DNA of 64,000 nt from Nautilus pompilius (lineage: Eukaryota; Mollusca; Cephalopoda; Nautilida; Nautilidae), in NCBI GenBank assembly GCA_018389105.1, contig JACATO010002141.1:167001-231000 (forward strand). The letters run 5' to 3'. Position 1 is the first letter of the stretch; each line of letters starts with the position of its first letter. The notes under the pieces were generated by a model that saw nothing but the letters and a program-made list of their open reading frames with translations, had not been told where the DNA came from and did not search any database. A program made the translations under genes and the position numbers. This document shows positions 1 to 62,657 of the stretch, piece after piece.

Positions 1-621
1 CAGGGTTCCAATTCCGATGTAAGCATAGGCACTGCTGATGGGCCATTTGCTGCATTCAATTATTTTCTAAGGCAGGTCATAAGTTGGAGACACCTGAAGT
101 TTGTTAATAATTAGCATCATTTTGCTTCGATTACCTGTATCTTTAAACTCAAAATATAAACTTTTGGTAGTGTATAAATACATGTGGTTTATACCATAAC
201 CCTCTGTTTAAGAAGGCCAGAAATGACATCATGAGCATCACAGTTGTGGAAGATGGTGGGCATATTGATTCTGACATCAAAAGTCTAAAAACACAAATTG
301 ATGGTTTCCTCCAACAAATCTGTTAGGGAACATTTAGCTTTTTAAACTTTTTTTTTTTTTTTGTTTTTTACATGAACTTGACAATTTGTGATTGTTAATT
401 GGTAAATAGGTAGAGACTTTCTGCAATAGGCATGTGGCTAACCTTCACATTGTTTAGTTCTGGTGGGTGGATGCTTTATGTACCAAAAGAAGAAGAGTTA
501 GTATGTAGATAGTGGTGAAATGTGTCAGAATTATAAGGTTGTCAGTGTTTCTTCAAGTTGTTATTTGGTAAGCAATAGTCTTAGTGAAGAATGTCTGTCT
601 AATTGCATGTTCTGTTCTTAG
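1..621 (+). other. Intron upstream of the first visible PRKD exon
   Basis: AT-rich non-coding sequence. I see no glycine-loop exon here. The exon at 622 starts with two bases of a split Gly codon, so its partner exon lies left of the window. Confidence 0.6.
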
Positions 622-3600: not shown

Positions 3601-6311
3601 AACAAGTATTGTTTCATTTGTTTTTATTTCTTGTTTTCTAGATTTTAGTGGCCTTAAAACACCTACATTTTAAAAATATCGTTCACTGTGATTTGAAACC
3701 TGAAAATGTGCTGTTATCAACTGAAATGGCCTTTCCCCAGGTAAAGAGACTGTAGAGTTGAATTAACAAGACAAGATGGCTGAAGTTGTAGTGTCCAGAA
3801 TCTGTAGCATCCAGCTGAGTTCTTCTAGAGTTGAGCAGCATGTTAGCCTCTGTAGCATTGCATTGTGGGAAGATTTTCTTGAGTTATCAGGAACTTGTTT
3901 CAGATCATTTGGCCATCTGCTACACTGTTTTAACAAGATTTCATAAAGAAACATTGAAGAATGATTTGTGCATTTATCTTTTAGCAAGACAGGCCATGAA
4001 GATTATAAACAAATGTTGGCAATGTGCTGTATAATATAGACACCTTTTTTCTGAAGCTCCTCTTTTTTTTTTTTTTTTTTTACTCAGGATGGGGGTTAAT
4101 ACTTCGTAAATGAAGCTACTGTACAGGGGAAGGGGTGGTGGTATTTAGGCTTTGTGGTGGACTCATGGTCGTACTACCAGACACTCAGGTCAAGGGTCCC
4201 TCCCTGCCACTGGTTCCAACTGGCTCTTTAGCCAGCCATGTGGGTTTCGACCACATCTAAAAATGAAGACTACTTTGGGATTTTTTGGTAGGTTTGTTTC
4301 TGGTTTCTTCCTAGTCTATCTTGGATCTTGGTTGTCAAAGTAACTCTGCAAGTTCATCGAATATGCAAAAACACTCAGCAAGAATTTTCTCTTTAACTGT
4401 TCATCTGAGACGAGCAGTTTAATTTTTGGGCTTCCTTTTAATTTAAAAATAGTGCTTACTTGAAAGCATTTAGGGATTTTGAGATATATTTTTCATTATC
4501 TGCATCTAATTTGTTAATTTAATTTTGCAAATCCCAAAATGAAATTTTTTTTGTTTTTTTTTTTTTTTGTGTGAAGGTGAAACTTTGTGACTTTGGTTTT
4601 GCCAGAATTATTGGTGAAAAGTCTTTCCGAAGATCAGTTGTGGGCACTCCAGCATACTTAGGTAAGATGGTGAGCTAATACACAATAAAAAATAAGATTA
4701 TGAGCATCATTTAACTAAACACTTATTGTTTATTACTTTGGTACACACCATATTTAACATTCAAAGATATGTTATCCTGTTCCTTTCATACTGCTTCTTA
4801 CCACTATTCCGAATAATTGTTAGCTTATGCTATGCTTTAGTATAAATGTTAATGGGCTTCATTGTTCGTGACTGCTTTGGTTTATTTGGTAGATCAAAAT
4901 CGCACCTAAAGATGAAATCCACATAAAGCAACCATTTATAGAAATGAAGTCAATTGCCTCAGTTTAAAGGGCCAAGGAAGAAAGAAAAAATATCATGGAA
5001 AGCAAAGATAGCTGGTTTAAAAGTCTACAGCCAATTCTTGACAGGTGGCTGATTAACTGCTGACCTGAATTTCTCTGCACAAGTCATCATCTGAACCTCT
5101 GTCACCAAAAGAAGGTTAATGGAAGTTGGATTAATTGGCCAGCTAGCAGCTAGAAAGCTTTTTCTCAGATGTGGTAACAAGAAAAATCAATTTGACTGGG
5201 CTAAACAGCATAGAATTCTCAAAGTGGTGCATATTGTGGTCAGATGCGAGTGGGTTTGAAATATTTGCTTCTAACAGACAACATTATGTTAGAAGAATGG
5301 CCAAAGAAAAGTATTAGGAGAACTGTAGCTTTATTTGCTCTACAGTTTAGCACATTGGTGGAACTACAAAAAAAGATTAGGTGGTTTTGCTGTTGGCTTG
5401 TTAAAAGTTGATGGGATTCGCAAGAACAAAAGATATCAGTATTTTGTAATGCTTTGCAATTTCATTACAGCAGCATTTGTTAGGCTGTGGGTTTATACTG
5501 CAACAAGATAATGATCTGAAGGACACTGCAAAAGTCAATACAATATCTTGCTAGAAAAGAGTTGGAACAACTTTTTAAACCATTCAGTTTCCAGATCTGA
5601 ACTCCATTAAACTTGTGTGGGATGAACTAAATCAGAGTTATAGGGAAAAGGTCCAACCAGTTTCAGTCAGTCATTCAGCCAGCTATAGAACTACTTACAA
5701 AAGGAATTGGTGGGGTATTACTAACAGGAAATCTGAACAGGACATCCAAAATGTGTGAAAGATGGCTATTTTAATGAAAAGGGGTTGAAGTGATAACAAC
5801 AGCACATTTAATATTTTATATAGTCTGATAAATTATTTATCTGATTTTTCATGGTTTTTTTGTTGGGATAATAAAAGAAAGACAGCATTTTCTTTTGCAC
5901 AACTTATGATTTTGACTAATTTTGTGTGTGTGTATTAAATTGTACTTTTGCTTTTCTTAGTTTAGATTTCACTTCACAAACAGTTTGTGCTTTTTTTTAA
6001 TTTACAAAGCTAAATAGTTATGCATGTATTTCACAAATGTTAGCTTGTATGTCTGCTTGTTTTTAAGCCCCAGAAGTTTTAAAAAGCAAGGGTTATAACA
6101 GATCTCTTGACATGTGGTCAGTTGGCGTTATCATCTATGTCAGGTAAGCTCGATGCACCAATGATATTTTTTTGTTTGCTTATTTTTAAAATATTTTTCT
6201 TTTATTTCAAAGAACTGGGTTAGACAATTAGTGAATTTTACTTGTGAAGCTTTAGAAAGAAAAAAGTGTGTGTGTGTGTGTGTGTGTGTGTTGTGTGTGT
6301 GTGTGTGTGTG

Positions 6312-6348
<37 letters not shown>

Positions 6349-9300
6349 AGGGAGGGAGAGAGAGAGAGAGATCATGCATTATATAGCTAACAGGATACTA
6401 CAACTAATATTTCAGGAATAACAATTTTTTTCAAATTAATGGACAAAAGATAATTCAATAAATTGTCTAAATTGATGGCACGATCACATTTGCTATTTCA
6501 AAAGATTTTGTATGACTAATAAAACCAGACAAAGGAGAAGTATCTTTATTTTATGTTGTCATCATTGTAATCTGTAGGTTTAAGAGAAGTGTTTGACAGC
6601 AGCATCTTCATGTTTTGAATGGAGACTGTTCTGACTAATTTTGCACAGAAATGGACCCTATTTGAATTTTGGGAAATTTAAGAAGAAATTTCACTTAATG
6701 CTGTGGCTGGCCACAGCTGTTTTGCTAACCTAAAACTGTTTAACATCACAATTTTGCATTTATTCTAAAAACTTTTCATACTCCCCATGATTCCATGCTG
6801 TAACCCTAGCTGTAGCCAAGTAATTCTTCGACAGTTTTGTTTATTATGTCATGTTATGTGACTAATAAGTGATGTTGGGTTGAGTTAAATTTATTCCACT
6901 AAAGTAATGAAGATTGTTTTAGACTTCCTTCATTTGCTACTGTTGCAGTGGTTAACCATCTCATGCTCTATACATAGATTGTATCTGTGAAAACTATAAT
7001 ATGGTGGCAGTATTTGAATGAGCTGACATTACAAGCTTATTTAATTCAGCATTGAAATACATTTTTATAACCAGCTCTGTTTTTGGTAATTTGACCATTA
7101 GCTTCTGAAAAATCTTCCTTACCTATTTTTCAATGCTACATCCTTCTGCATTTCATGTCACAAAATTTTCTCTTAAACGTTGCCTTGTAGCCTTAGTGGT
7201 ACTTTCCCCTTCAATGAGGATGAAGAGATCAGTGACCAAATCCAGAATGCATCTTTTATGTATCCACCCAATCCTTGGAAAGAGATCTCTCAGGAAGGTG
7301 TGTGACATTTTTATATACCTATAGCTGGACAAACCATTGCCATTGGTGACAAAAACAGTGATTCAGACCGTTGTAACTCGTGAATTTATTTTTAAAGATC
7401 TAGATCTGTACAGTTATTTACACAGATCACAACTTTTGATGTTTAGTTTCAGAACTTTAATAATTAAGATAAATTGAAAACTAAAGAACTGCCTTCTGTT
7501 CAGAATACGGTTTAACTGTGTGATTTTTTAATTCTGTGTAATGCCAGAAAATACTGGCTGACATATTGGACCAGCATCAGTTTACCGGCTCTTAAAACAG
7601 AAACTGGCAAATTCACATCATTGCACTTTTTTCCTTGCAGCCATTGATCTCATCAGCAACCTACTTCAAGTGAAAATGAGGAAACGCTTCACTGTTGACA
7701 AATCATTGGCACATGTTTGGTTACAGGTAGGAGTTGTGTGTGTTTGTACAAGCATAGAATTTTTAGCATATGTTCAAGCTTGGTGATAAAGGGAGATAAC
7801 TTTGGGTTTTTTTTCAAACAACATTTGTATCTTTTCAATTTTTATATACAGCAGGGACTCTCCCAACAGCAACTCCCACCACCCTCATTCACAAAAAAAT
7901 TTAAGAACTCTCTTTGAGACGATTATTAAAATTTCAAACAAATTTCTAGTATGATCTAGGTAAAATGTGTGTGTATTGAAGCCAGAATTTGAATCAGCTC
8001 TGCTTAAAACACCTTGGTTATTAATTAGTGTATCTATTCTGCTGGTCAGACTCCATTGGTGAATGACTCGACTTTTTTAGTTGATTCTAATTAACTAAAT
8101 TTATTACACATTTTATGGTAAAATTTCTCAACTTTTTCAAAGCTTATCAGCACCATTAAGCTTGCAGTGAAAGTTGTATTATGCATTACAGATTGACTGG
8201 TCTTAACTTCTAATCATTTGGAATAGGATATAATGTATAATCCTAAAATCACTTGACCCCTAATTTAAAAGAGGTACTTACAGTCCTCCTAAAGATTTTT
8301 GTTATGTTCTGAATCTTGTATTAATTTTAATTGTGAGATTTAGCACCATAAACATTGTAGCACCACCTGAGTTGGTGGTAGATTGCTAAGGTTGACGGCC
8401 CAAGTTTGATTTGCAAGGGACTAGCTTGGTTTGGCATTTCTTCTCACTCCTCTCCTGCAACTGTATGGCTTTCCTTCAGCTTCTTTCCATATCTAAAAAT
8501 GAGGAATTCTAGCAGGAATTTCTTTGCCAAAGTCAGAAGTGCTGGGACCCGATTGGCAGGGATTCCTTGCAGACAACTGTGGTGGTACTACACTCCATCA
8601 CCAGTGTTGTCTCCCTTCTAAGTATTGGTCTATGAAAAGTAGCTCCCTCATCCATAGTATTCATAAATCAATCAGTCAAAATTATGCTGGTACTTAGTCA
8701 AATCTTTTGGATCCAGCACTAATTAACAGTTTTAGATGGTGCAGATAGATGTCAGTACTGGCACAGCAAAGTACGGATCTAATGAATAAACTTGCAAAAG
8801 AGCAGAGAGCCATTGGGGAATTTGGTGAACTCTCTATGGTATGGTTTCTTCCTGCTCTCCATCAGTCCATCAGCATGGATTTTCTTTGGACACTGATTTT
8901 CTCCCACAAGTAAACAGTAAAACTTTAGTAGGGATTTTAATATATGTACCAATGGGGGTACTTCAGCTCATGAAATCATAGACTTGGAGCTTTACAGATG
9001 TAAAAAAATTGAAATTTTTCTTTCTTTGTCATTTTACTTTTTTTAATGTAATTATTTACTTTTCTCTAATTTGCTTATTTTTTTTAAATAGAAAAATATT
9101 ATGCTAAGCTAGTTTATTGAATATATTTTCAAAATAATAAAAATGCATTTTTTTTTAAACTGACATTTAGGCACCATGTGTAATTTATAATGAAAAATAA
9201 TGCCTTCATTACTGTCTGCAGCATCTTTGTTAATCTTAGTTTCTCTTCACTATTTTAAATTTGATTTGTACATTTGTTTTTAATCCAAAACAGGATTACC

Positions 9301-9494
9301 AGACATGGTGTGATCTGCGAATTCTAGAATCCCAGGTGGGGCAGCGATACCTGACTCATGAATCGGACGATGAGAGATGGGAGCAAACAAGGAAAGAGAA
9401 AAACTACAAACCATGGCAAGAAATTGGTCAGAAGGGTGTTGACATGACATACCAGCTGGTGAAATCTCGTGAGAGAACCAATGACACTTCGTGA
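622..9494 (+). CDS. PRKD: Protein kinase D orthologue, 3' part (nine exons)
   Basis: Serine/threonine kinase of the PKD family (CAMK group), which acts downstream of diacylglycerol and PKC at the Golgi and plasma membrane. Coding exons: 622-728, 1168-1224, 2276-2380, 3642-3740, 4577-4661, 6068-6143, 7191-7297, 7641-7726, 9294-9494 (TGA). All have AG/GT borders and the phases join into 306 complete codons. Visible motifs: [17 protein letters not shown] with the ATP-anchoring Lys; HCDLKPEN (HCD rather than HRD, as in PKDs) at 3684-3707; DFGFAR from 4589; activation loop [18 protein letters not shown], with both regulatory serines (codons at 4622 and 4634); [20 protein letters not shown] near the C terminus. 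The glycine loop, PH and C1 domains must lie upstream of the window. The usual HPWLQ reads HVWLQ, and the tail ends RTNDTS without the VSIL-type PDZ ligand of vertebrate PRKD1. Which vertebrate paralogue is closest cannot be told. Confidence 0.96.
4136..4300 (+). repeat. SINE copy 1 (partial), in a PRKD intron
   Basis: Shares with copies near 8.4, 13.3 and 37.0 kb a head resembling a tRNA and a central block around 'cacatctaaaaatgaag'. It is diverged and lies in the intron between the exons ending at 3740 and starting at 4577. Boundaries are approximate. Confidence 0.55.
5020..5830 (+). mobile_element. Degenerate Tc1/mariner-like transposon in a PRKD intron
   Basis: With frameshifts and stops tolerated, the plus strand shows transposase fragments: [10 protein letters not shown] near 5190; a catalytic stretch near 5490, [15 protein letters not shown], matching the family's LQQDN.P.HTAK; then [10 protein letters not shown] and a relic of the family's PDLNPIE.LWDEL block near 5600-5630. 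There is no intact frame and I could not define terminal repeats. It is a dead copy inside the intron between exons 4577-4661 and 6068-6143. Confidence 0.8.
6266..6371. repeat. (TG)n/(GA)n compound microsatellite
   Basis: About 80 bp of TG dinucleotides, interrupted by TTG steps, runs into a GA tract. It starts about 120 bp after the splice donor at 6144. The His-Thr frame on the reverse strand is only a translation of this repeat. Confidence 0.95.
8343..8640 (+). repeat. SINE copy 2 (nearly full length), in the last PRKD intron
   Basis: The tRNA-like head includes 'gttggtggtagattgctaag' and an 'aagtttgattt' B-box-like stretch. Next come the 'atatctaaaaatgaggaatt' central block, 'gtgctgggacccgattggca' and 'caccagtgttgtctcccttc'. 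The same order of blocks occurs in the copy at 36.9-37.1 kb. Confidence 0.7.
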
Positions 9495-10040
9495 TTGAGC
9501 AATGCATCAACCTTGTTTTAACTGGTCACGATGCACATAACCTGCAGTGAAGTTAACCAAAACGTGCAAAAATGAAAAAAAAAACAAAACAAAACTGATC
9601 CGCGTTCACAGCCATATGATGGAGATGCTCTGACTGTTGACTTCATTTTAAATGATCCAGATCTGCCAGACATTTGGTTGGTGTTAGCTATTGATGCATC
9701 TATGAAGAAGGTAGACTGTTGAGAACTATGCCATAAATGTGGTTTTGAAGAATTCTATCAGTTCTCAGCAGCTGCCTAAAAATCTGTTATTTGTCAACAA
9801 GTGAGTGGAATTTAAAGCAAAATGTGGTGGAAAGGGAGGTTTCACGATGTGTACTGGATGACTATTAAGCATTAATTTTTCTGACTAAAAACAAAATTTT
9901 TAAGTTGGCTAAGCTCACAACTAAACGTTAAATAGTGACATTCTTTATCTATAGCAGAGATTGCATAATGGTTCGTCGTTTTGATTTATACTGCATGTAC
10001 GCACTGAAGGTTTAAAATAAAACCAAAAACCAACTTTATA
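9495..10040 (+). other. PRKD 3' UTR with a candidate poly(A) signal
   Basis: Non-coding sequence follows the TGA directly. The first clear AATAAA on the plus strand is at 10016-10021, giving a minimal 3' UTR of about 0.54 kb. Longer forms are possible; another AATAAA is at 17815-17820. Confidence 0.5.
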
Positions 10041-25091: not shown

Positions 25092-27520
25092 CTAATTTAC
25101 TGGCACAAAACAGAGCTCAGTGTAAAAGGTTGAGCGTGCTAACCCCAGATATTTAAAAATCAATGGCACTATATATGTTACAGCCAATGCAACAAAAAAA
25201 TAAGTGCAGAATTTATTGGGCAATTCGACTGCCTTTTTTTCTTTAACCTTTGGATTGTTTTTGTCTAGCCCAAGAATTCTGCAGACAACTGTCATTGATA
25301 ATTCTCGCATGCTCTTACGTATGAAAACCAAAACCATCACACCTACGCATAGCCTCAAAAAGCTCATGATGACAATAGTGGCAGAAGGGAAGGGGATCGT
25401 CTTGCCCAGTTGAAGTGAGGGTAAAGCCATTCCTTGTTGGTAGTTCAACCAGGAGCCACATGAAATACCAGCACCAATTGCTACTATAAGGGTGGTGTCT
25501 CCACGAGTTGTGCTCCATCTCTCCAACTTTGGATAACACAGACTCAGGATGAGCGGCACACCAATTGTAACAACTGGAGCTAATGGGTGAGTCACCTGGA
25601 ACTCATCAAACCTATTCACCATGGGAAACAGCAATGGCAGCAACACAAGTGTTAGAAAGACACCAGCAATGACATCCTGAAAAATAAAAGCTAATTGGAA
25701 TCAAATGTTGCATTACCACTTCAAGAGAGAGACAGTAGTAGTGTTGTTTGTTGCATTAATTTTTTTTTTTTTATTTGTGGGGCTGGTTGAATGTAATGTA
25801 AGAAACAGACAACAGCAGAAGGAAAATCTAGCTGGATATCCTGGGTTTGCAGTGACATTATGATATAATAGCATTGTTGAAAAAGAAAGGGAGAGAAATC
25901 TTTATTTCAGGAATTAGTTGAGAGATTGTAGTGCTTCAGTTGCTAGGTAAATGCACTATAATGAAAACACATTGCAAAAGAAAAAAATTTTCTACAAAAC
26001 ATTTAGGCATACCTAATTTTTCAAATAACTTGGGATTAAAAAGCTACCGACTTACCAAGACTGAATGCATTCCAAGGTAGATACGACTGAGACCAACCAG
26101 TATAGTCCAGCTCACTGCAATTGTTAGTCCAATCATGAAAGGATACTGAAGTAGAAAGTCTTTCTTAGAATTTTTAGTAGATAATTAAATGGAGCTAAAC
26201 TGAAATATACAGATATGACAACACTTTTTTTTTTTTCTTTAAGAAAACAGCATTTGCATTTCTCACTACTAAACGTCAAAAGAATTAAGGTCATTAACCA
26301 AAACCTAGGGGAGGAGGGAGACAGCAATCTCAAACTTTGGCTCTAAAGTAAACTGAGCTTAACATCACACTGAAGTTATGCACCTATCTGGATTTTGAAC
26401 CTAGGTGTAAACGAGATAAGATAGCAAGAAAGCGAGCTGGTATATAGGTCATTAATATACCATCTGCGTTTGCATCAAAATTAATATTTTCTTTTTAAAT
26501 ATACGCTTATTTAATTATTTATTAAATGTGAAATATTTAAAACAGATTGCAGGTAAGTTTTTGTTTTTTCCACTTTTTCCATCCAATTTGTTGTTTCTCG
26601 CAGGACTAATAAGTTCGCAATACAAGTTTTCCAAAAATCCAAGATACATCAGCAAAAATTCGCTAAACAAATGTCAAGGCAGAACATAATGAATTGTATG
26701 GAATGATTAATCTGGTGTGACCCGGTAACAGAGACAAAAGTACAAAAGAAATAGAATGAAGTCGAAACCACATTCCGTTTCCTCTGACGGTGGGTGAGCC
26801 ATACACACTGTGTCGGTTAGCGAAGCGAGAGAGAGAGAGAGAAAGAAAGAAGAACCCAACAAACGAAAATTCGGCGCTGATACAAACCTGATATCTTCCG
26901 TAAGTCAATATCAGCAACGAAAAAGGTAAGCATGTCCCGACCATGGCGTGAGTTGACGGCATCCCATACTCGAGGGCGTACCGCTTCTCCAGCTTAACAA
27001 CCGGAGGAGAAGGAGGCCGAGGTCGCTTGATGAGATCTTTAGACACTTGGCCAATGTACATTATAATCCACCAGACAAGACAGACCCGGCGAGCCACAAA
27101 ACTATCCATATTCCATATGAAAAAGGGGAAGAAGGTGATATAGAATATATCGTTTCCCAACGCAGCCCCAAAGTTGAACAAGTAATACAGGGCTTTGTTC
27201 TCTATTCTGTAATCGAGATGAGGCCTGGCGTCCTCCTTGTTACCGTTGGGCAGTAAATCTCCGTTCTGAGCCACCTTCTCCATACCGTTCGACTTGCTCG
27301 AGATCCGAATTGACGACCGACTCCTACCAGCGTCTATACCAGCAGCGCCATTTTGTTTGCAGTAATGACTTCCTCCGTCTCCATGGATCACTGACCTTTG
27401 GTTTGTCAGAAGACGGCTCTCGTCCTGACGATCCTCCCGAATTATGCCGCAAGCCCGCTGGAACCGTACCACCAAGTACGGGTCGTCTAGATAATCTAAA
27501 CAATTCATCAAGACGTCCAT
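25092..27520 (-). CDS. SGPP: Sphingosine-1-phosphate phosphatase
   Basis: An ER-membrane lipid phosphatase of the PAP2 superfamily that dephosphorylates sphingosine 1-phosphate. Coding exons (minus): 27520-26888, 26145-26056 and 25676-25092 (stop), phase 0 throughout, giving 435 residues; human SGPP1 is about 440 and SGPP2 about 400. All three PAP2 phosphatase motifs are present: C1 KDLIKRPRP (residues ~161-169), C2 MPSTHAM (187-193, catalytic-type His191) and C3 SRIYLGMHSVLD (231-242, His238 and Asp242). The last spans exons 2 and 3. Hydrophobic segments surround these motifs, as expected for a multi-pass protein. The first ~100 residues are polar, as in SGPP1. Two downstream ATGs exist, but the ATG at 27520 follows a GC-rich leader and gives the family length. 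Convergent with PRKD. Paralogue 1 or 2 cannot be assigned. Confidence 0.95.
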
Positions 27521-27618
27521 GCTCCGAGTTTACGCCAGCCCTCGGCTGAGAAGGGGGCTCCGGCCGTGCTTAGCTCCTCGTCCCTCTGCCGCGCTGCTTC
27601 TGCCGCTCCCCGACGATT
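27521..27618 (-). other. SGPP 5' UTR part of the first coding exon
   Basis: Immediately upstream of the ATG on the minus strand, a strong acceptor ('tttttctaccacag') ends at 27619. This suggests the coding exon begins at 27618 and is preceded by a non-coding exon. An inverted CCAAT ('gattggtcag') near 27768 leaves room for a second, local promoter. Confidence 0.5.
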
Positions 27619-31175: not shown

Positions 31176-31424
31176 GTAATTTTACACCTTGTCCTCCGTC
31201 AACTGATCCTGACAGTAAGAACCCCCAGGGGGCGTGCGCGTCACCACGAAAAAAAAACGTAATTTTACACCTGCCCCTTCTCATCAACTGATTGATCCTG
31301 ACAGTAAGAACCCCCAGGGGGCGTGCGCGTCACCACGAAAAAAAAACGTAATTTTACACCTGCCCCTTCTCATCAACTGATTGATCCTGACAGTAAGAAC
31401 CCCCCCCCAGGGGGCGTGCGCGTG
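31176..31424. repeat. GC-rich tandem repeat, three units of ~83-89 bp
   Basis: Units begin 'gtaattttacacc' at 31176, 31259 and 31348. Each has 'gatcctgacagtaagaaccc', a C-run/G-run palindrome (cccccaggggg, lengthened in unit 3) and 'gcgtgcgcgt'. They are separated by A-tracts. Units 2 and 3 are almost identical; unit 1 is shorter and diverged. Confidence 0.92.
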
Positions 31425-39054: not shown

Positions 39055-39257
39055 ATAGAAAATCAACTAATTATTGGCATGACACCAGTCAGTTGCTACT
39101 GATTCCGTCTGGTTCCTGGTAAGCAAATCTTTATACACATTGTTCCTACATTATTGCACTGGATGATTTTGCTGCAGTCTAGAGGATGTAGACCATACTT
39201 AAATTTCCCACAGATGTAGCCAGCCGATGGATGTTTGAAGCATTGATTATTTTTTAT
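39055..39257 (-). pseudogene. Gene A terminal CBM14 exon, out of frame and prematurely stopped
   Basis: From the acceptor at 39258 the exon encodes a peritrophin-A-like stretch: GLHPLDCSKIIQCNN and KICLPGTRRNQ, then TAG at 39098-39096. The gene B exon continues in line with YLLTCVF; here the aligned codons go on past the stop, with Cys changed to Gly, to TGA near 39055. There are 12 bases between the acceptor and the first Cys-adjacent codon, against 14 in gene B. The phase-1 splice from the upstream mini-exon therefore reads about three codons and stops. The chitin-binding domain looks lost, unless an unseen exon restores phase. Confidence 0.65.
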
Positions 39258-41040
39258 CTGAAATATACAGAGATACAGATTAGGTAAAAAAACCGTTCCA
39301 CTGCAGTCATTTGATAAAACAAACAAATCATGGATTTGGCGTGCAATATTTAAATATTTCTGAATTGAAATTCTCAGTTATATACATGATAATGTACAAC
39401 GAACCTTGCAAATATGGGAGTTCTATTAGGAATTTCCATTTGTTCACAATTATTGTCATAGATAGTGCACGGTAATTTTGTGTATGTGTATGTATGTCAA
39501 TGTTTCCAATTTGTCCATCTCGCTATTGTTCTGTTCCTGGCCTGACCTGAACAGTGAAATTAAATTTCGGAGCAAGCAACAAGAGATACAGAATATTCTG
39601 ATGATCGAAATTTTTGTATCTCTTTAACTTTTTGTTTTGGAATTTAGAAAACCTGACTTATCAACTGTCAGCAATATTGAGATAGCTTTAGAAAAGAATT
39701 TCAAGTCATCGAAATATTTGTCAGAAAAAGGGAAACATCTTATTTCTGGAAAAATTTTAAGGTTCAATATCAGTGATAGAATCTTCTGATGGCATCATCA
39801 TTAATTTGTCAGACCAAGTTTCTTTAAAAATATCAGAGTTGGTTTTATTGGCTGCATAGTTTTTATTCGTATATTTATGTAGAAACGCAGATGTACTAAG
39901 CGTTTAACACCTACAAAAACCAGACATTCCAGACTACCCAAAACCATTCAAGACACGCATAGGAAATTAATATTTTGGGTAAGTTCCCAATTATAGCACA
40001 AAGGGACAATGCACATTTTAGATATCGCTTAGAAAGAATTAGGACTGTATCAGTGCATAAACTTTCTGGGTTTTGAATTTTGACTTCAAGAATACAACTG
40101 ATCTGTTCTGTTGCTCAAAGTGTGAATTTGAAGGATCACCTAGCCAATATGTGGACAACATTTTCATTCCTATTTCTAAGGTTTCAGGAATGGTTGAACC
40201 AACAGCATGTTAATTTCCACTTGACAATAAACTTCTTTTTTTCAAAACTTTCTGTCATAGGGTTGAAGTAAACATGAATATTAATCTACAGAAAAACTGT
40301 TTATTTGACCGATGATTTAGGGTCGTTGATGTCCTTTTTGTTTTTGGCCACACATTAAGAAAGTGTCCTATGAAGTATTCAAATATTTATTTATTTTTGA
40401 CAATTTTATGATCAAAAAGATTAAACTATCTAATAAATGGATTTCATTTTTCATCATAATGTATCGACTGTTTGTTAATCATTATACTATTCCAATTTAA
40501 TATCAAAGTCTTCATTCACAGGTTTTTTAAATGAATATATGTTCAGTGTTATCTGGTATTCTGACCATTGTTTTGAAGTTTTGCTCTGCAAATTTTGTAG
40601 CTCATCATCGACCTACAACCTTTGGTTCTCTTAATTTCATAAAAATGGTTTGTCCATAGAAATAGAACCAAGCACCAACAATGTAATCGTTGTGTCTGAT
40701 AAGAAGGTAACAGATAGAAAGAAGTCAGTGTCTCTGTATCTGGGTACACATTGAAATCAACAATGGATATAAAGGCAGGATGAAGAGTTTGCAGGTTCTT
40801 TTATATTCATATTAACTATGCTTAGTCATACATGTAGATGTTATCTGAGTAAAAATGTACACACGCCTACATTTACTGTGAATTAATTCCTTTTCATGAA
40901 GTTACAATGATTGATGCAAGTATATTTGATGTTAATTTTAAATGTTTTGTGAATATAGATGAATGGTATGACATATAGGTTTAAAGCTCCTGCATGAATA
41001 ACATATATGATTGGTGTGAACAGTAAAAATATACACTTAC

Positions 41041-43857
41041 GATAATAGCATCTGCCATAATAATAATGATAACCCGGTGGACACCTGTAATCAGACATAA
41101 AACGTTTGTATAACTTATTCTGAGTATAATGTATTGTATTCAATGTATAATAAAGAATACGAGAGAGTAAAAAATGTTCTCCAAAATCTGGAGTTTCTAT
41201 AGGCACAACATTAAGTACATTTATATATTAAGGATTAAGTCAGAAACCTAGAAATAATTGTCATCATAAATTTTTCCCTTTTATAGAAATATTATAAACT
41301 GTCCTATAAAGCATTATATATATATATGCTGATTAGGTTCATCTTCCCACTAGTTTGTATCATTTTGATTTTTCATTCTAAAAAGTCTACTGAGCATCAA
41401 AACATTTATGAAAGAAACTTCAAATGCTATTTGTAGAATAGTGTTCAATACAATGGATGTCCGACCAGTAACTTACAGTTAACTCGTTTCTACAAGATTG
41501 GAATATATAGTTAACTTCACTTTTTAAAGTTTAATTTAGCTTTCTGGATCTAAAGCAAGAGATTACTTAGATAATGTAATTTGTGCATGATGCATATTTG
41601 TTTGAAGTTTCCAAAGAGGACACGGCAAGTATTTTACTGAAAGTCGATATCTGCCATTCTGTTATTATTGATTTTATTATAACAAGAGGGAAATATTTAG
41701 TTAGTACTGGTGATTTGATGGTCATTAACATCCAGGTGAGGTAGTGGTAGTGAACTGAAAAATAAATGCATATGAGAATGGTAAACATTTGAAGCAGTTT
41801 ACTGTCTATTTAGCCATTCTGGCCATTTGACACATTTAATAAGCAATAAGGAGAAGAAAACATTGTAAATCTAAACCTTTTCTTCTGCTTGAAGGTTGTT
41901 GTCAGATCATTCATAGTTGTGGTTGGTGGAATAGCTGTCGTTGTTGGTGGAAGAGTTGTCATTGGTGGTGGAGTTTTCTTTATGTGCAGCTTATAATAAC
42001 CCAGGTTGGTTGCTGAGAAATCTACACCAATACATCAGATAGATAAATTCTTAAAAGATGCATGTATATACAAAATATAAAAAAACTGTGGTATTGATGC
42101 TGTGATAAGAGAAATAAAATGATATTGTTAATAAATGCTTTGAATTACTGTTGGAAATCCACTGAAAACATTAAACACCTAGGGTGTGCGGGGTATGGGT
42201 ACAACATGAACAAATTGTACAAGTCACCAAGTATAGAAAGAAGAAACAACCTAGAGTTCGTATATATTAGAAGTTGCTTAGTAAGGACAAGGCCTATATC
42301 CGTGCATAAACTGTCTGTGTGTTTCTTTTTTTAATGAAGAATACAAAGAGTCTGTTCTGGTAGTCAAATTGGGGATTTGGAGGATCACCTGCCTGACATG
42401 CTGATCACATTTGCATTGACAATGCTAAAGTTTCAGGAAAAGACTGAACCGACAGGATGTTAATATCAGCTTGACAGTAAATTTCTTTTGTGGGAATTTC
42501 CTATCATAGGGTTTTAAAGTAGAATATTACATTACACAAAGCATTGCATTTGTTTTAAGTGATGAAATAAGTATTTCTATTTGTTTGCATGTGCATTGAA
42601 CTAATCTATGGGCGTAGAAGCAGGCTGAACGTTCTGCAAGCCGCTTCTGCAGGTTTTGCACGTCCATAGAAAGATGTAGTCAAAGAACTATGTTTAGTAA
42701 TCTATGCATTATCATATTAGATGCCATCTGATTACAACTTAAAACACATAATTTCTCTTCATCAAATTACAATTATTGGTAGCAGAACGTGGATGTAGTT
42801 TTGAATTTTGTGCAGTCGATAGTGTAAAGAATTATATACAAGTAGGTTTCAAAACATTTAATTTGGGATGAGTCTGGAAATTGGAATGTACACTTACGTT
42901 GGCATTTTCCATGAATATATAGAAAACCTGGCGGACAGCTGTAATCAGACAAAAAGGGACTGTAAAAGATACTTTCTATATAATATCAAATTAGAATTAT
43001 CAAAAGAGTATAAAGAGTTTTCAACAAATTGCAATCATAACAGAAAGTAGACCAACTTAAAGATTATCTCTGCTGTAATGAAAGACTTTCAATTTTAGAA
43101 GGTTGGTGTTTTAAAAAATTTCTTAAAGTGTTTTTCATAGCTACATAAAAGCTCTAGAATTTTCTATTATTTCCAATATATAGACATCATCACTTTCCCA
43201 GTAAGGAAAACATCAAGCTGTAAACTGATGCTGCCGAGACACTGTTGTCATCCTAATGCTCTCTCCTGCTTATCAAAATGTATGATTAGTTGCTGTTAGT
43301 CAGTCTTTTGTCCTCTGTGAGATGGACAGCAATTTTATTTTATTTGTTCTGAAATGGAGACCAAGTTCCTCAGAAATTTCAACCCGGTTTGGCAGCAATT
43401 TATGGGGAGGGTAAAAGAGAGTCCACACTTAGTTGTGACTCCTCCACAGTCCCGTGATTGTTTGATAGCCAGTACTTAATCGAAATATCAAAGAATCTTC
43501 TGATGCCTGAAGTTTGGCTTGAGAGAGAAGAAAATTTGCCAGCTAGAGTTGGTGAGAATAAAGAAGCTTTATTTAGTTGTTTGGATTCTTCTACAGGTTT
43601 CTGTTTCTGGTGGGAGTCGTAGTCGCCTTTAAGGTTTTAAAATGACTCCCTAACCTTGTGAGACTTGAAACTATGAAACAATCTTCTTAAAAATAGACAA
43701 ACAGCACTAGTATTAATAACTACAGAATATATTCCTGTGTGGATTGAAATAATAATATTAATAATAGTACTTACTGAGGAAAGTTGTGTGATCGGTACCG
43801 GAAACCAGCCACAGCCAACTGGATACCAACCAGAAGCAGCCAAATGCTGAAAGTCAT
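41041..43857 (-). CDS. Gene A: small secreted protein with two CPPG modules and a Thr/Pro-rich linker
   Basis: Exons (minus): 43857-43775, 42938-42898, 42021-41877 and 41084-41041; all phases join. Exon 1 is a signal peptide (MTFSIWLLLVGIQLAVAG). Exon 2 is a 41-nt mini-exon, CPPGFLYIHGKCQ. Exon 3 encodes a linker with TTLPPTTTAIPPTTT, a likely O-glycosylation (mucin-like) stretch; its donor is weak (gtttag). Exon 4 is a 44-nt mini-exon, CPPGYHYYYGRCYY. Splicing on to the exon at 39257 gives only a few more codons before a stop, so the product would be a secreted protein of about 105 residues without a chitin-binding domain. Paralogue of gene B (48.07-53.07 kb). Function unknown; I know no named family with this CPPG module. 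It may be a decaying gene. Confidence 0.6.
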
Positions 43858-43928
43858 CGTGAAACCTTTCCTCCTCTTCAGCTGTGGATACCTTTCTGAA
43901 GTGGTGCAGGTAACATTGACTTTACCGT

Positions 43929-45777: not shown

Positions 45778-46955
45778 TTAACTTTTAGAAAATAATAAAC
45801 AATATTTTAAAGCAAAGGAAAATATTTCTTGATCACTCTGGAAAATACATGGGGCTAATAAACATGGCCGAGAGCGAAGAATGCTGGCCCCTCCCGAGCG
45901 TTCTTGGCGGCTTGGCATGGAGGTGCTCAGCCTGTGGCACTGCTGAGGTGTTATGGAAGCCCAGGTTGCTTTCATAGCGGCCTTCAGCTCGTCTGAATTG
46001 TTGGGTCTGGTGTCTCTCATCTTTCTCTTGACAATACCGCATAGATTCTCTTTGGACTTGATAAAACACAGTGGACCAACACCAGCAGATGACATGGCAC
46101 CCCAAATCATCACTGACTGTGGAAACTTCACACTGGACTTCAAGCAACTTGGATGCTGTGCCTCTCCACTCTTTCTCCAGGCTGTTGGACCTTGATTTCC
46201 AAATGAAATGCAAAATTTGCTTTCATCTGAAAAGAGAACTTTGGAGCACTGAGGAACGTTCCAGTTCTTTTTCTCCTTAGCCCAGGTAAGACGCTGCTTC
46301 TGACGTTGTCTCTAGTTCAGGAGTGGCTTGACACTAGGAATGTGACACTTGTAGCCCATTTCCTGGACACGTCTGTGCATGGTGGCTCTTGATGCACCGA
46401 CTCCAGCCTCAATGCACTCCTTTTGAAGGTCCCCAAGTTCTTGAATCGGCTTTGCTTGACAATCCGCTCAAGGCTGCGGTCATCCCTCTTGCTTGTGCAC
46501 CTTTTCCTACCACACTTTTCCCTTCCAGTCAACTTTCCATGAATATTCTTTGATACAGCACTCTGCAAACAGCCAGCCCTTTCAGCAATGACCTTCTGTG
46601 GCTTACCCTCCTTGTGTAGGGTGTCACTGAGTGTCTTCTGGACAACTGTCATGTCAGCAGTCTTCCCCACAATTGTGGTTGTGTGCATTGAACCAGACAG
46701 AGATTCATGGTATTTATACTGCATAAATAGTGATTTACTCAAACTCAAAATGGAATATTCTAATATTTTGAGATACGTTTTTTCTATTTTTTAAAGATGT
46801 AGGCCGTAATTATCAAAATTAAAATTAAAAAATGCTTGAAACATTTTAGTTTACCTGTAATGAGTCTAGAATATATGCAATTTTCACTTTTTGAAATAAC
46901 TGACAAAAAATATTGAACTCTTCCTTGATATTCTAATTTTTTAGATGCACCTGTA
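45778..46955 (-). mobile_element. Tc1-like transposon with internal deletion
   Basis: The right end 'tgcacctgta' near 46955 is a typical Tc1-like terminus next to a TA. The minus strand encodes the N-terminal paired-like DNA-binding region at 46748-46317 (KTADMTVVQKTLSDTLHKEG, GKLTGREKCGRKRCTSKRDD). After frame changes come SVMIWGAMSSAGVGPLCFIK, then directly GIVKRKMRDTRPNNSDELKA and WASITPQQCH. The catalytic segment that normally lies between IKSK and the GIVKRKMRD region is missing. The left terminus was not found. It lies between genes A and B and is non-autonomous. Confidence 0.88.
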
Positions 46956-47935: not shown

Positions 47936-47941
47936 TTTATT
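47936..47941 (-). terminator. Poly(A) signal of gene B
   Basis: Minus-strand AATAAA about 130 bp past the gene B stop, conserved with gene A at 38949-38954. Confidence 0.6.
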
Positions 47942-48069: not shown

Positions 48070-51000
48070 TTAGTGGTATATGGGAGGACATGGACCTTTT
48101 TTCTTGAAAACACATGTCAGGAGATATTGATTCCATCTGGTTCCTGGTGCGCAGCTCCTTATATACACCGTTCCAAAGTTATCGCACTGTAGGTACTTGG
48201 TGCAGTCTTCAGGGTATGGACCATAATGAACCTTCAAGCAGATGAGGCATGCTTTTGGATATTTGTAGCACTGTTTATTTCCTGTTTCTGAAAGGTATAT
48301 AGACCCAAATTAGATCACCATCTGTTAACCATCTCAGAAAACATAAATCAGGGATTTTCATATTTTATGTACATATTTGCTAAGTTGAAAATTTCAAGTT
48401 TACAACTGATTATGTAAGAGGTATCTAGCTATTAATGGGCTTCTGATAGGGACTTAGATTAGTTCAGTCAATGTTAATTAAGTACACTTTTGAATTAGCC
48501 ATCCCTTCTTGACCTGTATTCTCACTCCACCTCTCCGGCTGGTGTTGCGGTCTCTACCTGACATGAAAGATGGAATGAAATTTGCAGAGAAACAACAACA
48601 TTTACATCATTTTATGAGGATTAATATTATTTTATTTATTTACAGTTTCTGAGTTCTAACTTTAAAATGTTAACACTTTCTCCCTCACCAGTATCTACAA
48701 TGGTTTAGAGATGGATTTACAAAAACTGCAGATGGATTTATTGATTGTTCAGTTTATTGGTCTATAGACAGAGCTGTATGTCTATTTCCTTTCTAAGGTG
48801 TTTGAAGTTTCTTTCTCAAACCTTCCCTCTTGCCCTTCCTATTATTTTCATCCATGCTATCTGTCCTCAGCAGGTGGTTATAGAAAGTTTCTCAAAGGAT
48901 TACAGACCAACATCATATTTGATTTTTCTGACATATCTCAACCATAATAAAATAGGCATAAAAGGTTATTAGAAGAAATTCTTACCTATGCAATTTTTGT
49001 TGGTGGAATCTAGGACATAGTGTTTAGGGCAGGTACACTCAACACCATTATATAGTTTTCTGCACCCATGAGAACAGTCGTAGCAGGACAGTGGTCCATG
49101 GTGTGGATCAGTCTTTGGCTTGATCTGCGGCTCGTCTTCTAAACCAATACACCAGATAGATTATTACATAATCGTTACATGCATGCAAACTATAAAAGTT
49201 GACCTTTTATTGCTTCATTGAGAAAGATATATATATATTTTCCATTAATGAGATGTGAATTAATGTAGTAAATACCGAAAAGTCCAGTTATGAGGAGTAA
49301 CCCATAACTGTACAGGACATTGGCACTACATAATCATTTATTTAAACTCTTCAATTATAGAAGGAAGTGAAAACCTGTCAGTGGTAATTATTAGTTGTCG
49401 ATTGCTAAAAACAAGACCTGTATTAACTCTCAAACTTTCTGGTTTTATGATTTTGTCACTCCGAATAATAGTAATCTATTCTGCTGGCCACATCGTGAAT
49501 TTGAAGGATCACCTTCCCAATAAACTGCCTACACTCCCTCCACGGTAAAGATAGTAAATTACAAATACTGGAGATGGATTTATTGGTTGTTCATTTTATT
49601 TGTCAAGATACAGCTGTACATATACTTCCTTAATATGGTGTTTGAAGTTTCTTTCTCAAACCTTCCCTGTTGCCCTACCTCTTATTATCATCCATGCTAT
49701 CTGTCCTCAGCAGGTGGTTATATGAAGTTGCTCAAAGGATTACAGACCAACATTATATTTGATCTTTCTGACAGGCCTCACCTGTAATGTTCACAGTTAT
49801 AACAAGTCATCAGAGGAAATTCTTACCTATGCAATTTTTTTTGGTGTAATCTAGGACATAGTGTTTAGGGCAGGTACACTCAACACCATTATATAGTTTT
49901 CTGCACCCATGAGAACAGTCGTAGCAGGACAGTGGTCCATGGTGTGGATCAGTCTTTGGCTTGATCTGCGGCTCGTCTTCTAAACCAATACACCAGATAG
50001 ATTATTACATAATCGTTACATGCATGCAAACTATAAAAGTTGACCTTTTATTGCTTCATTGAGAAAGATATATATATATTTTCCATTAATGAGATGTGAA
50101 TTAATGTAGTAAATACCGAAAAGTCCAGTTATGAGGAGTAACCCATAACTGTACAGGACATTGGCACTACATAATCATTTATTTAAACTCTTCAATTATA
50201 GAAGGAAGTGAAAACCTGTCAGTGGTAATTATTAGTTGTCGATTGCTAAAAACAAGACCTGTATTAACTCTCAAACTTTCTGGTTTTATGATTTTGTCAC
50301 TCCGAATAATAGTAATCTATTCTGCTGGCCACATCGTGAATTTGAAGGATCACCTTCCCAATAAACTGCCTACACTCCCTCCACGGTAAAGATAGTAAAT
50401 TACAAATACTGGAGATGGATTTATTGGTTGTTCATTTTATTTGTCAAGATACAGCTGTACATATACTTCCTTAATATGGTGTTTGAAGTTTCTTTCTCAA
50501 ACCTTCCCTGTTGCCCTACCTCTTATTATCATCCATGCTATCTGTCCTCAGCAGGTGGTTATATGAAGTTGCTCAAAGGATTACAGACCAACATTATATT
50601 TGATCTTTCTGACAGGCCTCACCTGTAATGTTCACAGTTATAACAAGTCATCAGAGGAAATTCTTACCTATGCAATTTTTTTTGGTGTAATCTAGGACAT
50701 AGTGTTTAGGGCAGGTACACTCAACACCATTATATAGTTTTCTGCACCCATGAGAACAGTCGTAGCAGGACAGTGGTCCATGGTGTGGATCAGTCTTTGG
50801 CTTGATCTGCGGCTCGTCTTCTAAACCAATACACCAGATAGATTATTACATAATCGTTACATGCATGCAAACTATAAAAGTTGACCTTTTATTGCTTCAT
50901 TGAGAAAGATATATATATTTTCCATTAATGAGATGTGAATTAATGTAGTAAATACCGAAAAGTCCAGTTATGAGGAGTAACCCATAACTGTACAGGACAT

Positions 51001-53071
51001 TGGCACTACACAATCATTTATTTAAACTCTTCAATTATAGAAGGAAGTGAAAACCTGTCAGTGGTAATTATTAGTTGTCGATTGCTAAAAATAAGATCTG
51101 TATTAACTCTCAAACTTTCTGTTTTTATGATTTTGTCACTCTGAATAATAGTAATCTATTCTGCTGTCCACATCGTGAATTTGAAGGATCACCTTCCCAA
51201 CAAACTGCCAACACTTCCCCCACGGTAAAGATAGTAAATTACAAATACTGGAGATGGATTTATTGGTTGTTCATTTTATTTGTCAAGAGACAGCTGTACA
51301 TCTACTTCCTTAATATGGTGTTTGAAGTTTCTTTTTCAGACCTTCCCTGTTGCCCTACCTCTTATTATCATCCATGCTATCTGTCCTCAGCAGGTGGTTA
51401 TATGAAGTTTCTCAAAGGATTACAGAACAACATTATATTTGATCTTTCTGACAGGCCTCACCTGTAATGTTCACAGTTATAACAAGTCATCAGAGGAAAT
51501 TCTTACCTATGCAATTTTTTTTGGTGTAATCTAGGACATAATATTTAGGACAGGTACACTCAACACCATAATATAGTTTTCTGCATCCATGAGAACAGTC
51601 GTAGCAGGACAGTGGTCCAGGGTGTGGATCAGTCTTTGGCTTGATCTGTGGCTTGTCTTCTAAACCAATATACCAGATAGATTATTACATAATCGTTACA
51701 TGCATGCAAACTATAAAAGTTGACCTTTTATTGCTTCATTGAGAAAGATATATATATATATATTTTCCATTAATGAGATGTGAATTATTGTAGTAAATAC
51801 CGAAAAGTCCAGTTTTGAGGTGTATCCCATAACTGTACACCCAGGGGCAGATTTGGAGCCCATAATGGCCCAGGCAAACACCTGAAATCGGCCCATTAAT
51901 GATAGACAGGAATGAATCTCACACACACACACACATTTATTATTCAAATTAATTGTTAAAATAGCCTGCAGAGGGAGTCCGAACACTTACGTTGACATTT
52001 TCCATGGATGTAGATATATCCTGGTGGACAGCTGTAATAAGACAAAAAGGGCTGATGAACGGTACTCTGTATATTATGTAGGTAGCATGTTTTATTAGAA
52101 TTATTAAATATGTACAATAAGAGAACGTTAACAGATTTTGAAATCATCATTGATTCTCCTAACATTAAATATATGTACAAATATTGGGACCTTGGTATCC
52201 CGCTGAAAAGTTTTGTACACCTACAGTTTACGTTTTTCCCTCTGTTTTAGTTTTAACAGCAAATGGACAGTCAAGAATGGCTGGATGATTGCAACAGGAT
52301 CTGGACAGTTTGTAAAATCTTGTTTGGTGTTTTGAACAAAGTCTCTCTGAATTTTTGGTGGAATGAGAGGATTCTTTATACCTTGAAATGTTGGATGTTT
52401 AAAAGATGTCAATTATGTTATTTGTCCATAACCTTTTAAAAGATAACTTATATTACGTTTTGATTTCACTTTTATTTTTGTGTGGAAACCACCATATCCT
52501 CGTATTTAATCTACAATCTTGCTCCTAATTGATGCTGCCTTTAAATCCTCTGCCTCTATTTTCTCGTTATAGCTCTCTCCTGCTGCTCCAAATGTATGAT
52601 TACTTCCTGATACACACTTCGCAAAATCCAATACTATTTTCCAGCAATTTAGGGGGTCCACTTAGTGACGACTCTACTATCAGCTGGTTTGTTTGATTGC
52701 CAGTACACAATGAAAATCCTGTATAAGGCTTCACAAGGCTGAAGTTTGTCTTGACATAAAAGATAAAATTGCTACCAGAGGTTGGAGAGAATAGTGATGC
52801 TTTCGTTTCTCCTAATGGTTTCTTTTATCTGGTTGGAGTCTTAGGCCTTTAAGGGCTTAAAGTGACTCCCAAACCTGGTGAGACTAAACACTATAAAAGT
52901 ATGTGCCTAAAGAAACAAAATACTTTTACGATTAGCTTGTTCTGATGATTGAAATAATAATAATAATAATAAATTAGAAATTTACTGCACTTACTATGGA
53001 ACTTGTGGTGGGTGGAAATACGCAGTAGCCAGCTGGAAACCAACCAAAATTAGGCAGATACTGAAACTCAT
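48070..53071 (-). CDS. Gene B: secreted EGF-like x4 / CBM14 chitin-binding protein
   Basis: Seven exons (minus): 53071-52995, 52031-51991, 51659-51507, 50820-50668, 49979-49827, 49138-48986 and 48287-48070. They total 948 nt with no stop before TAA, hence 315 residues. Order: signal peptide (MSFSICLILVGFQLATA); CPPGYIYIHGKCQ mini-exon; four EGF-like repeats of 51 residues, each a Pro-rich linker (PQIKPKTDPH) plus a six-Cys unit spaced C-x2-C-x3-C-x8-C-x-C-x12-C; then a C-terminal peritrophin-A (CBM14) domain with YPEDCTKYLQCDNFGTVYIR and CAPGTRWNQYLLTC. After the phase-2 first intron all internal introns are phase 1, so EGF exons can be added or lost without breaking the frame. Probably extracellular and chitin-binding (matrix, cuticle or mucus); the role itself is unknown. 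Confidence 0.85.
48700..51840. repeat. Tandem array of ~840-bp units, each with one EGF-like exon
   Basis: Four exon-plus-intron units; exon ends at 48986, 49827, 50668 and 51507 give periods of 841, 841 and 839 bp. Units 2 and 3 look identical through exon and intron. Unit 4 (upstream in the gene) has several substitutions (EDK for EDE, HPG for HHG, YYG for YNG, KYY for KHY), and unit 1 differs at its exon end (LDSTNKN for LDYTKKN). Similarity stops near 51840 on the right and about 48.7 kb on the left. Confidence 0.95.
51840..51990. other. Junction between the EGF array and the CPPG mini-exon
   Basis: Unique sequence beginning 'cccaggggcagatttggag', followed by an (AC)n tract at about 51921-51936 and then the mini-exon donor. 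The abrupt change at 51840 marks the right end of the array and could be an inserted short element. Confidence 0.4.
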
Positions 53072-53145
53072 CGTGAAATCTTTCTTCATCATCTTCAGCT
53101 GTGAATACCTTTCCGGAATGGCACTGGTAACACTGACAATACCTT

Positions 53146-53153
53146 CCTTTATA
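53146..53153 (-). promoter_or_regulatory. TATA box of gene B
   Basis: Minus-strand TATAAAGG 75-82 bp upstream of the ATG, aligned with the gene A TATA box. About 100 bp on either side aligns between the two genes. Confidence 0.65.
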
Positions 53154-53619
53154 AAGATTCAAATCTTGCTGGCGGCTATGAACTTTTCTTTTAAGCAGGA
53201 TGATTGTAGATAAAAACAACATAAAACTTTGTTTTTAAAATATACATAAATCAATTTTTATGTTTATGTTCTACTATGTTTTTAATGCTGCCTGAAGGGC
53301 TTTTCATCAGTTTCTTTATCACAAAAGATCTTTAATTCGGTTGGTAATATCCTGAGGAAAGTTCTAAGCAGATGTTCTTAGAAATGTATGTGATTTGACT
53401 AATAACTTCCTTAATGTTGCTTATCCCTTTACCCTTTTCTGAAATCATATTTATTAGTTTTGCATCACCATGTAATAAAGATTAAAATTCTTTGTATTGC
53501 TTTTACTTTTTGTATCATTAGCTTTCATTTTCTACTTTAATGCCTGAAATAATAAATTATCGAAATGTTTTTAAAAGGTATTGCTGACTTTTTCAGCACT
53601 AACATTTATTTCATACAAT

Positions 53620-62420: not shown

Positions 62421-62429
62421 CGTAAACTT

Positions 62430-62657
62430 AACTTAAAAAAAAAACAAACTGTGCATGTTGTAAATGAAATTTTTCTAACACAGAATTGTGCTGTTTCTGC
62501 ATGGAATACAACAGTACAGTGTAATTGCAGCTGTATCAATTGTAACTTAAAAAAAAAACAAACTGTGCATGTTGTAAATGAAATTTTTCTAACACAGAAT
62601 TGTGCTGTTTCTGCATGGAATACAACAGTACAGTGTAATTGCAGCTGTATCAATTGT
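62430..62657. repeat. 114-bp tandem repeat, two copies
   Basis: Two near-perfect copies starting 'aacttaaaaaaaaaacaaac' at 62430 and 62544. The period is 38 codons, so both strands carry repeated open frames, which I read as by-products. A partial, diverged third copy of the end part begins near 62815. Confidence 0.93.

Follow-up and report, generated by a model that had tools for sequence, protein, structure and literature searches.

The stretch of Nautilus pompilius DNA analysed here (the window; 64,000 nucleotides) contains a gene on its minus strand, gene B, in which one EGF-like exon is found four times together with its intron. The locus raises the question of how these copies arose, whether all of them add domains to a single protein, and whether their number is still changing.

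Organisation of the array and of gene B

A direct-repeat search with a 300-base reference located copies beginning at 48958, 49799, 50640 and 51479, and the other three showed 98, 93 and 90% ungapped identity to the first. These copies belong to four tandem exon-plus-intron units on the minus strand, spaced 841, 841 and 839 bases apart. With units of approximately 840 bases and 90-100% identity, chance is no issue for the array. It is missing from the TRF output, in which the longest period listed was 500. The units are named W4 to W1 in mRNA order:

48717..51839, minus strand: array of four units, in mRNA order W4, W3, W2, W1 (from repeat spacing, splice borders and unit alignment)
51839-50995, minus strand: unit W4 (5'-most)
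50994-50156, minus strand: unit W3
50155-49315, minus strand: unit W2
49314-48717, minus strand: unit W1 (3'-most)
51841..51901, no strand assigned: dispersed repeat of about 61 bases, adjoining the array at its 5' edge in the place of the absent upstream part of W4 (from assembly matches)

A preliminary description of this DNA had reported four tandem units of about 840 bp, each with one 153-nt EGF-like exon. The units, their spacing and their exons all stand, but the units are not equal full copies. The homology of W1 to the other units ends at approximately 48702-48717, and W4 is without the upstream 227 bases (approximately) of a unit, a stretch found in front of W3, W2 and W1. At least 38 of the 40 places listed for the repeat at 51841..51901 fall outside the gene B locus and contig C2132, which is described below.

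The coding parts of gene B and its possible polyadenylation signal are as follows:

52995..53092, minus strand: coding part of exon 1, with a hydrophobic N-terminus that by eye resembles a signal peptide, and the donor GTAAGT
51991..52031, minus strand: exon 2, a short Cys exon reading CPPGYIYIHGKC, phase 2-1
51507..51659, minus strand: EGF-like exon 1 (W4), phase 1-1 (splice borders and open frame; FXa_inhibition on the full protein)
50668..50820, minus strand: EGF-like exon 2 (W3), with the same sequence as exon 3 (borders and unit alignment)
49827..49979, minus strand: EGF-like exon 3 (W2) (borders and unit alignment)
48986..49138, minus strand: EGF-like exon 4 (W1), with two residues unlike exon 3 near its 3' end (borders and unit alignment)
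48070..48287, minus strand: last coding exon with the stop, encoding a CBM_14 (peritrophin-A) domain (Pfam profile)
47936..47941, minus strand: AATAAA, possible polyadenylation signal

All four EGF exons are 153 nt long, are preceded by AG and followed by GTAAG, and encode 51 residues without a stop. The introns abutting them are in phase 1 and intron 1 is in phase 2, as read from the exon ends. Thus, each EGF exon is symmetric (phase 1-1) and a multiple of three in length, and the introns of the units are homologous too, as expected of in-frame tandem exon duplication. All seven coding exons of gene B are open and its six introns are GT-AG. The joined exons have 969 nt, or 323 codons including the stop, and encode 322 residues. 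The splice borders and the joined open frame bear out the earlier proposal that the phase 1-1 EGF exons are in frame with the flanking exons; the message is open as had been claimed, although its length had been given as 315 codons and has to be corrected to 322 residues and a stop.

The predicted protein shows, in order, an apparent signal peptide, the short Cys exon, four EGF-like repeats and one CBM_14 chitin-binding domain. Against Pfam, the whole protein scored 46.9 bits with FXa_inhibition (PF14670, an EGF-like family; cut-off 33.4), and three of the four repeats passed an E-value of 0.01 when scanned alone. CBM_14 scored 30.7 bits on the whole protein (cut-off 22.1) and 35.1 bits on its exon alone. 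The six cysteines of all four EGF exons follow the pattern C-x2-C-x3-C...C-x-C...C, a spacing which we take to be the EGF-like order. Sequence matches in PDB were weak (19 distinct sequences up to an E-value of 0.1) and included factor X light chains (best E-value 0.0021), a protein entered as Chitin binding beak protein 3 (0.015) and the LDL receptor (0.078). The gene B product therefore looks like an apparently secreted, predicted chitin-binding extracellular protein. From this arrangement we infer that all four exons are translated and that the protein is secreted and binds chitin, with the EGF repeats as a spacer or adhesive stretch before the chitin anchor.

Ratios of nonsynonymous to synonymous change (dN/dS) were calculated by the Nei-Gojobori method on few changes, and all values were below 1 where defined. 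They were 0.24 for W4/W3 (four synonymous and four nonsynonymous changes) and 0.37 for W4/W1, and in comparison with the single EGF exon of the paralogue gC they were 0.38, 0.51 and 0.38 for W4, W3 and W1. The values for the CBM exon were 0.42, 0.42 and 0.59, and that for the signal exon between gene B and its counterpart on C2132 (B') was 0.12. An excess of protein-changing differences between units is not supported by such small counts.

Paralogues and the origin of the array

The assembly was searched (727,640,739 bases, 2558 contigs; the contig of the window is C2039). The EGF exon gave 12 match rows, with all 47 candidates scored, which correspond to 11 distinct places: five on C2039 (four in gene B and one at 234068-234214), two on C2132 and four on C312, one of these contigs showing a further partial match at C312:372507. 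Unit DNA gave 18 matches, only on these three contigs, in a search that skips very common words, and this confinement speaks against an origin of the unit from a dispersed element. The CBM exon gave 16 match rows, and those outside C2039 and C312 have 36-50% identity.

The complete six-cysteine pattern without a stop was found in fetched DNA at eight places: four in gene B, two in the g3 region of C312, and one each in gC and C2132. The number of intact EGF exons thus ranges among the paralogues from none, in gene A, to four in gene B. The first of these lies in the window next to gene B:

39081..43872, minus strand: gene A, paralogue of gene B (exon search)

No EGF exon was found in gene A (39.1-43.9 kb), in which a remnant of the unit intron is present at 40018-40147. 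Its CBM exon (39081-39254, minus strand) has an in-frame TAG. Between genes A and B, a remnant of a Tc1/mariner transposase was recognised by eye (45778-46790, minus strand), with no transposase match in Pfam. The g3 region shows two EGF exons, both open and apparently in phase 1-1, with another short Cys exon between them; we infer that this region is one gene. In gC the frame of the EGF exon is open, its acceptor bases differ and, by reading, the old phase is seemingly not kept.

Two further genes on C312, g1 and g2, each contain the unit once, in one piece covering bases 25-837 of 839 at approximately 71% identity. The presence of a near-whole unit once in each of them suggests that a single unit is probably the ancestral state. 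In both g1 and g2 the one EGF exon looks decayed: a TAG interrupts its frame, a cysteine is lost and the donor reads ATAG|CTAAG instead of ATAG|GTAAG.

From these comparisons, gene B probably descends from a gene with a single EGF exon. This exon, within a segment of about 840 bases that included flanking intron, would then have been duplicated in tandem, and further duplication with exchange or conversion between units would have produced the identical interior units, while the array edges kept sequence that is older or has diverged on its own. Since the exon has 153 nt and is in phase 1-1, every such duplication adds 51 residues in frame, and the array most likely adds EGF domains to the protein in this way. 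Taken as a whole, a secreted protein with four EGF repeats and CBM_14, built by in-frame unit duplication from a single-EGF ancestor and later shaped by exchange or conversion, is to our mind a highly probable account of the locus. Among the observations that count against it, several paralogues have decayed EGF exons, and the exons of W1 and W2 differ by two nonsynonymous and no synonymous changes.

Differences among units and contig C2132

Over 839 compared positions, W2 and W3 are free of substitutions; a 2-base AT repeat is their only difference. In contrast, W1 has no substitution in relation to W2 over the first 308 compared positions and 43 in the following 288 (Fisher p 5e-15). Between W4 and W3, the exon shows 8 differences in 153 positions and the intron 21 in 686 (p 0.22); exon and intron differ alike, and constraint on the exon is therefore invisible at this scale. 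The differences were polarised with four outgroup copies (gC, g1, g2 and g3b). At two exon sites, W4 is the only unit to share the state of all four outgroups. These are two of eight private exon states of W4; of the other six, five occur in some of the outgroups and one in none, which does not fit a simple relic. W1 alone has the outgroup state at one exon site in all four outgroups and at a second site in three of them. In the intron just after the exon, W1 shows many states present in none of the four outgroups, so that this edge is more than retained ancestral sequence. These patterns support a reading of the edge units W4 and W1 as mosaics, and of the interior units as recently homogenised.

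The second contig with units, C2132, has 15,202 bases and contains the terminal part of a gene 96% similar to gene A (A'), followed by the gene like B (B'). A' is without approximately 125 bases of the CBM exon. The array of B' has two full units (Ca and Cb) and a third that is cut short by the end of the contig; the unit spacings are 841 and 850. At the 5' edge of Ca, 6 of 93 positions are unlike W3; four of these are W4 states and two are specific to Ca. Beyond alignment column 100, all 744 compared positions match W3, and Ca changes from W4 type to interior type somewhere between columns 52 and 169. By these states Ca is a hybrid of the W4 edge type and the interior type. Cb has no substitutions in relation to W2 in 841 positions. 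Small indels are present (one base in Ca; two and seven bases in Cb), and those in the exon of Ca break its frame; they may reflect either sequencing error or real damage.

The two contigs are closely alike from window position ~53276 down to 51877, with 93-100 matches per 100 window bases and few gaps, and in the stretch adjoining the array (51877-53176) they differ by about 2%. Upstream of about 53280, matches drop to 66-80 per 100 window bases. For bases 3300-9900 of C2132, no other match exceeded 81% identity among the best 40 of 117 candidates scored. As one control, window positions 1-6000 gave no second near-identical contig among the best 40 of 1132 candidates scored. The gene order is A' then B' on C2132 and B then A in the window. 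This order, together with the unmatched bases 3300-9900 and the fall in identity, disfavours C2132 as a simple allele; a paralogous locus that was homogenised with gene B is the more likely reading.

Identical interior units, mosaic edges and the hybrid first unit of C2132 indicate that the content of the array changes by exchange or conversion. The preliminary description had proposed that domain number evolves by unequal exchange at the level of the unit. The duplication in frame of a symmetric exon (phase 1-1), paralogue counts of 0 to 4 and the mosaics all agree with part of this proposal; unequal exchange itself cannot be separated from gene conversion, since C2132 stops inside its third unit and may be an allele or a paralogue. 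It is plausible that individuals vary in unit count. A bolder possibility, which we hold only tentatively and consider rather improbable, is that gene B represents a still active coding VNTR in an animal matrix protein, with C2132 as the other allele or a newly converted paralogue, Ca as a crossover product of W4 and interior sequence, and a number of EGF spacers before the chitin anchor that differs per chromosome and segregates within the species.

Alternative explanations and known systems

The explanation closest to duplication followed by exchange or conversion, and overlapping with it, is that the unit count has not changed of late and that the units are kept alike by gene conversion alone. 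The absence of substitutions among W2, W3, Cb and Ca beyond the first 100 columns, against about 2% in 51877-53176, is what conversion would be expected to leave; however, paralogues differ in EGF exon number, so that the number has changed over a longer scale. We give this possibility real weight, while considering it the less probable one. Much less likely is mutually exclusive or cassette splicing, with one or some of the four EGF exons in each transcript. Tandem exon duplication is often linked to mutually exclusive exons, according to the accessible text of PMC9013439, and any subset of the four exons would stay in frame as all are symmetric. Yet two of the four are identical, and a mutually exclusive choice between these would bring no gain in diversity; splice borders are also alike in all four copies, and EGF domains commonly occur in series.

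Slightly less likely again is an assembly artefact, affecting either the array or the count of its identical interior units. W2 equals W3 except for the AT repeat, and C2132 ends inside its own array and has small indels. On the other side, W4 and W1 each have private differences, a false join would need to keep the unit register, and a separate contig also carries successive units. The least likely is that gene B is decaying and its protein no longer made: the damaged EGF exons of g1 and g2, the TAG in the CBM exon of gene A and the missing bases of A' suggest decay in relatives of gene B, but gene B itself retains open coding exons, GT-AG introns and dN/dS below 1 where defined. In-frame duplication with later exchange or conversion thus remains our preferred reading.

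The well-studied system closest in kind to the gene B array is, by analogy, the human LPA kringle IV type-2 repeat. Its units of ~5550 bases contain two exons each, about 40 alleles exist and the exons are 98-100% identical (PMC7613587, in the part available), with 1-40 units per allele (excerpt of PMC11462820). As in gene B, tandem near-identical exon-plus-intron units lie within one gene, unit number sets domain number and related pseudogenes are found nearby (PMC7613587, same part). The two differ in scale, since gene B has 841-base units with one exon and is known from one assembly. Tandem exon duplication was found in about 10% of animal genes in a 2002 study cited by PMC9013439 (as quoted in its accessible text). 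The process is alike in gene B, where there are four copies and the introns are near-identical too, so that the last duplication events look recent. The earlier suggestion that symmetric phase-1 exons are a substrate for duplication fits gene B, whose phase 1-1 exon was duplicated with its introns.

CBM_14 and EGF-like proteins are present in the mollusc shell matrix, and the peritrophin-A proteins Pif and BMSP have CBM_14 in an apparently secreted protein, as gene B does (PMC3374290, in the sections available). In the portions of the shell-matrix literature searched, no description of a signal with four EGF repeats and one CBM_14 was found, and a literature search of titles and abstract starts found no published description of gene B or its array. 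The process is textbook, and gene B is a new, clear and fairly recent example. It catches internal domain duplication early, with near-identical introns, single-unit relatives in the same genome and readable edge mosaics. If the count segregates, it would offer a natural system for the effect of EGF spacer number on a chitin-bound matrix protein.

Elsewhere in the window, exons of a protein kinase D-like gene were named by eye on the plus strand (603-9494); in Pfam, Pkinase matched one exon weakly, below the cut-off (E-value 0.00084), and the last exon had no match. A gene on the minus strand (25092-27529) resembles, by eye, sphingosine-1-phosphate phosphatase, with PAP2 on one of the two frames scanned (E-value 4.8e-5; 23.6 bits, below the cut-off of 27.2). 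A dispersed repeat at 4926-5722 has at least 39 other places, mostly at 66-76% identity, among the best 40 of 1132 candidates scored. Finally, TRF reported an 89-base unit in 2.4 copies, 96% alike, at 31204-31423, and a 114-base sequence repeated exactly in tandem (2.0 copies) at 62429-62657.
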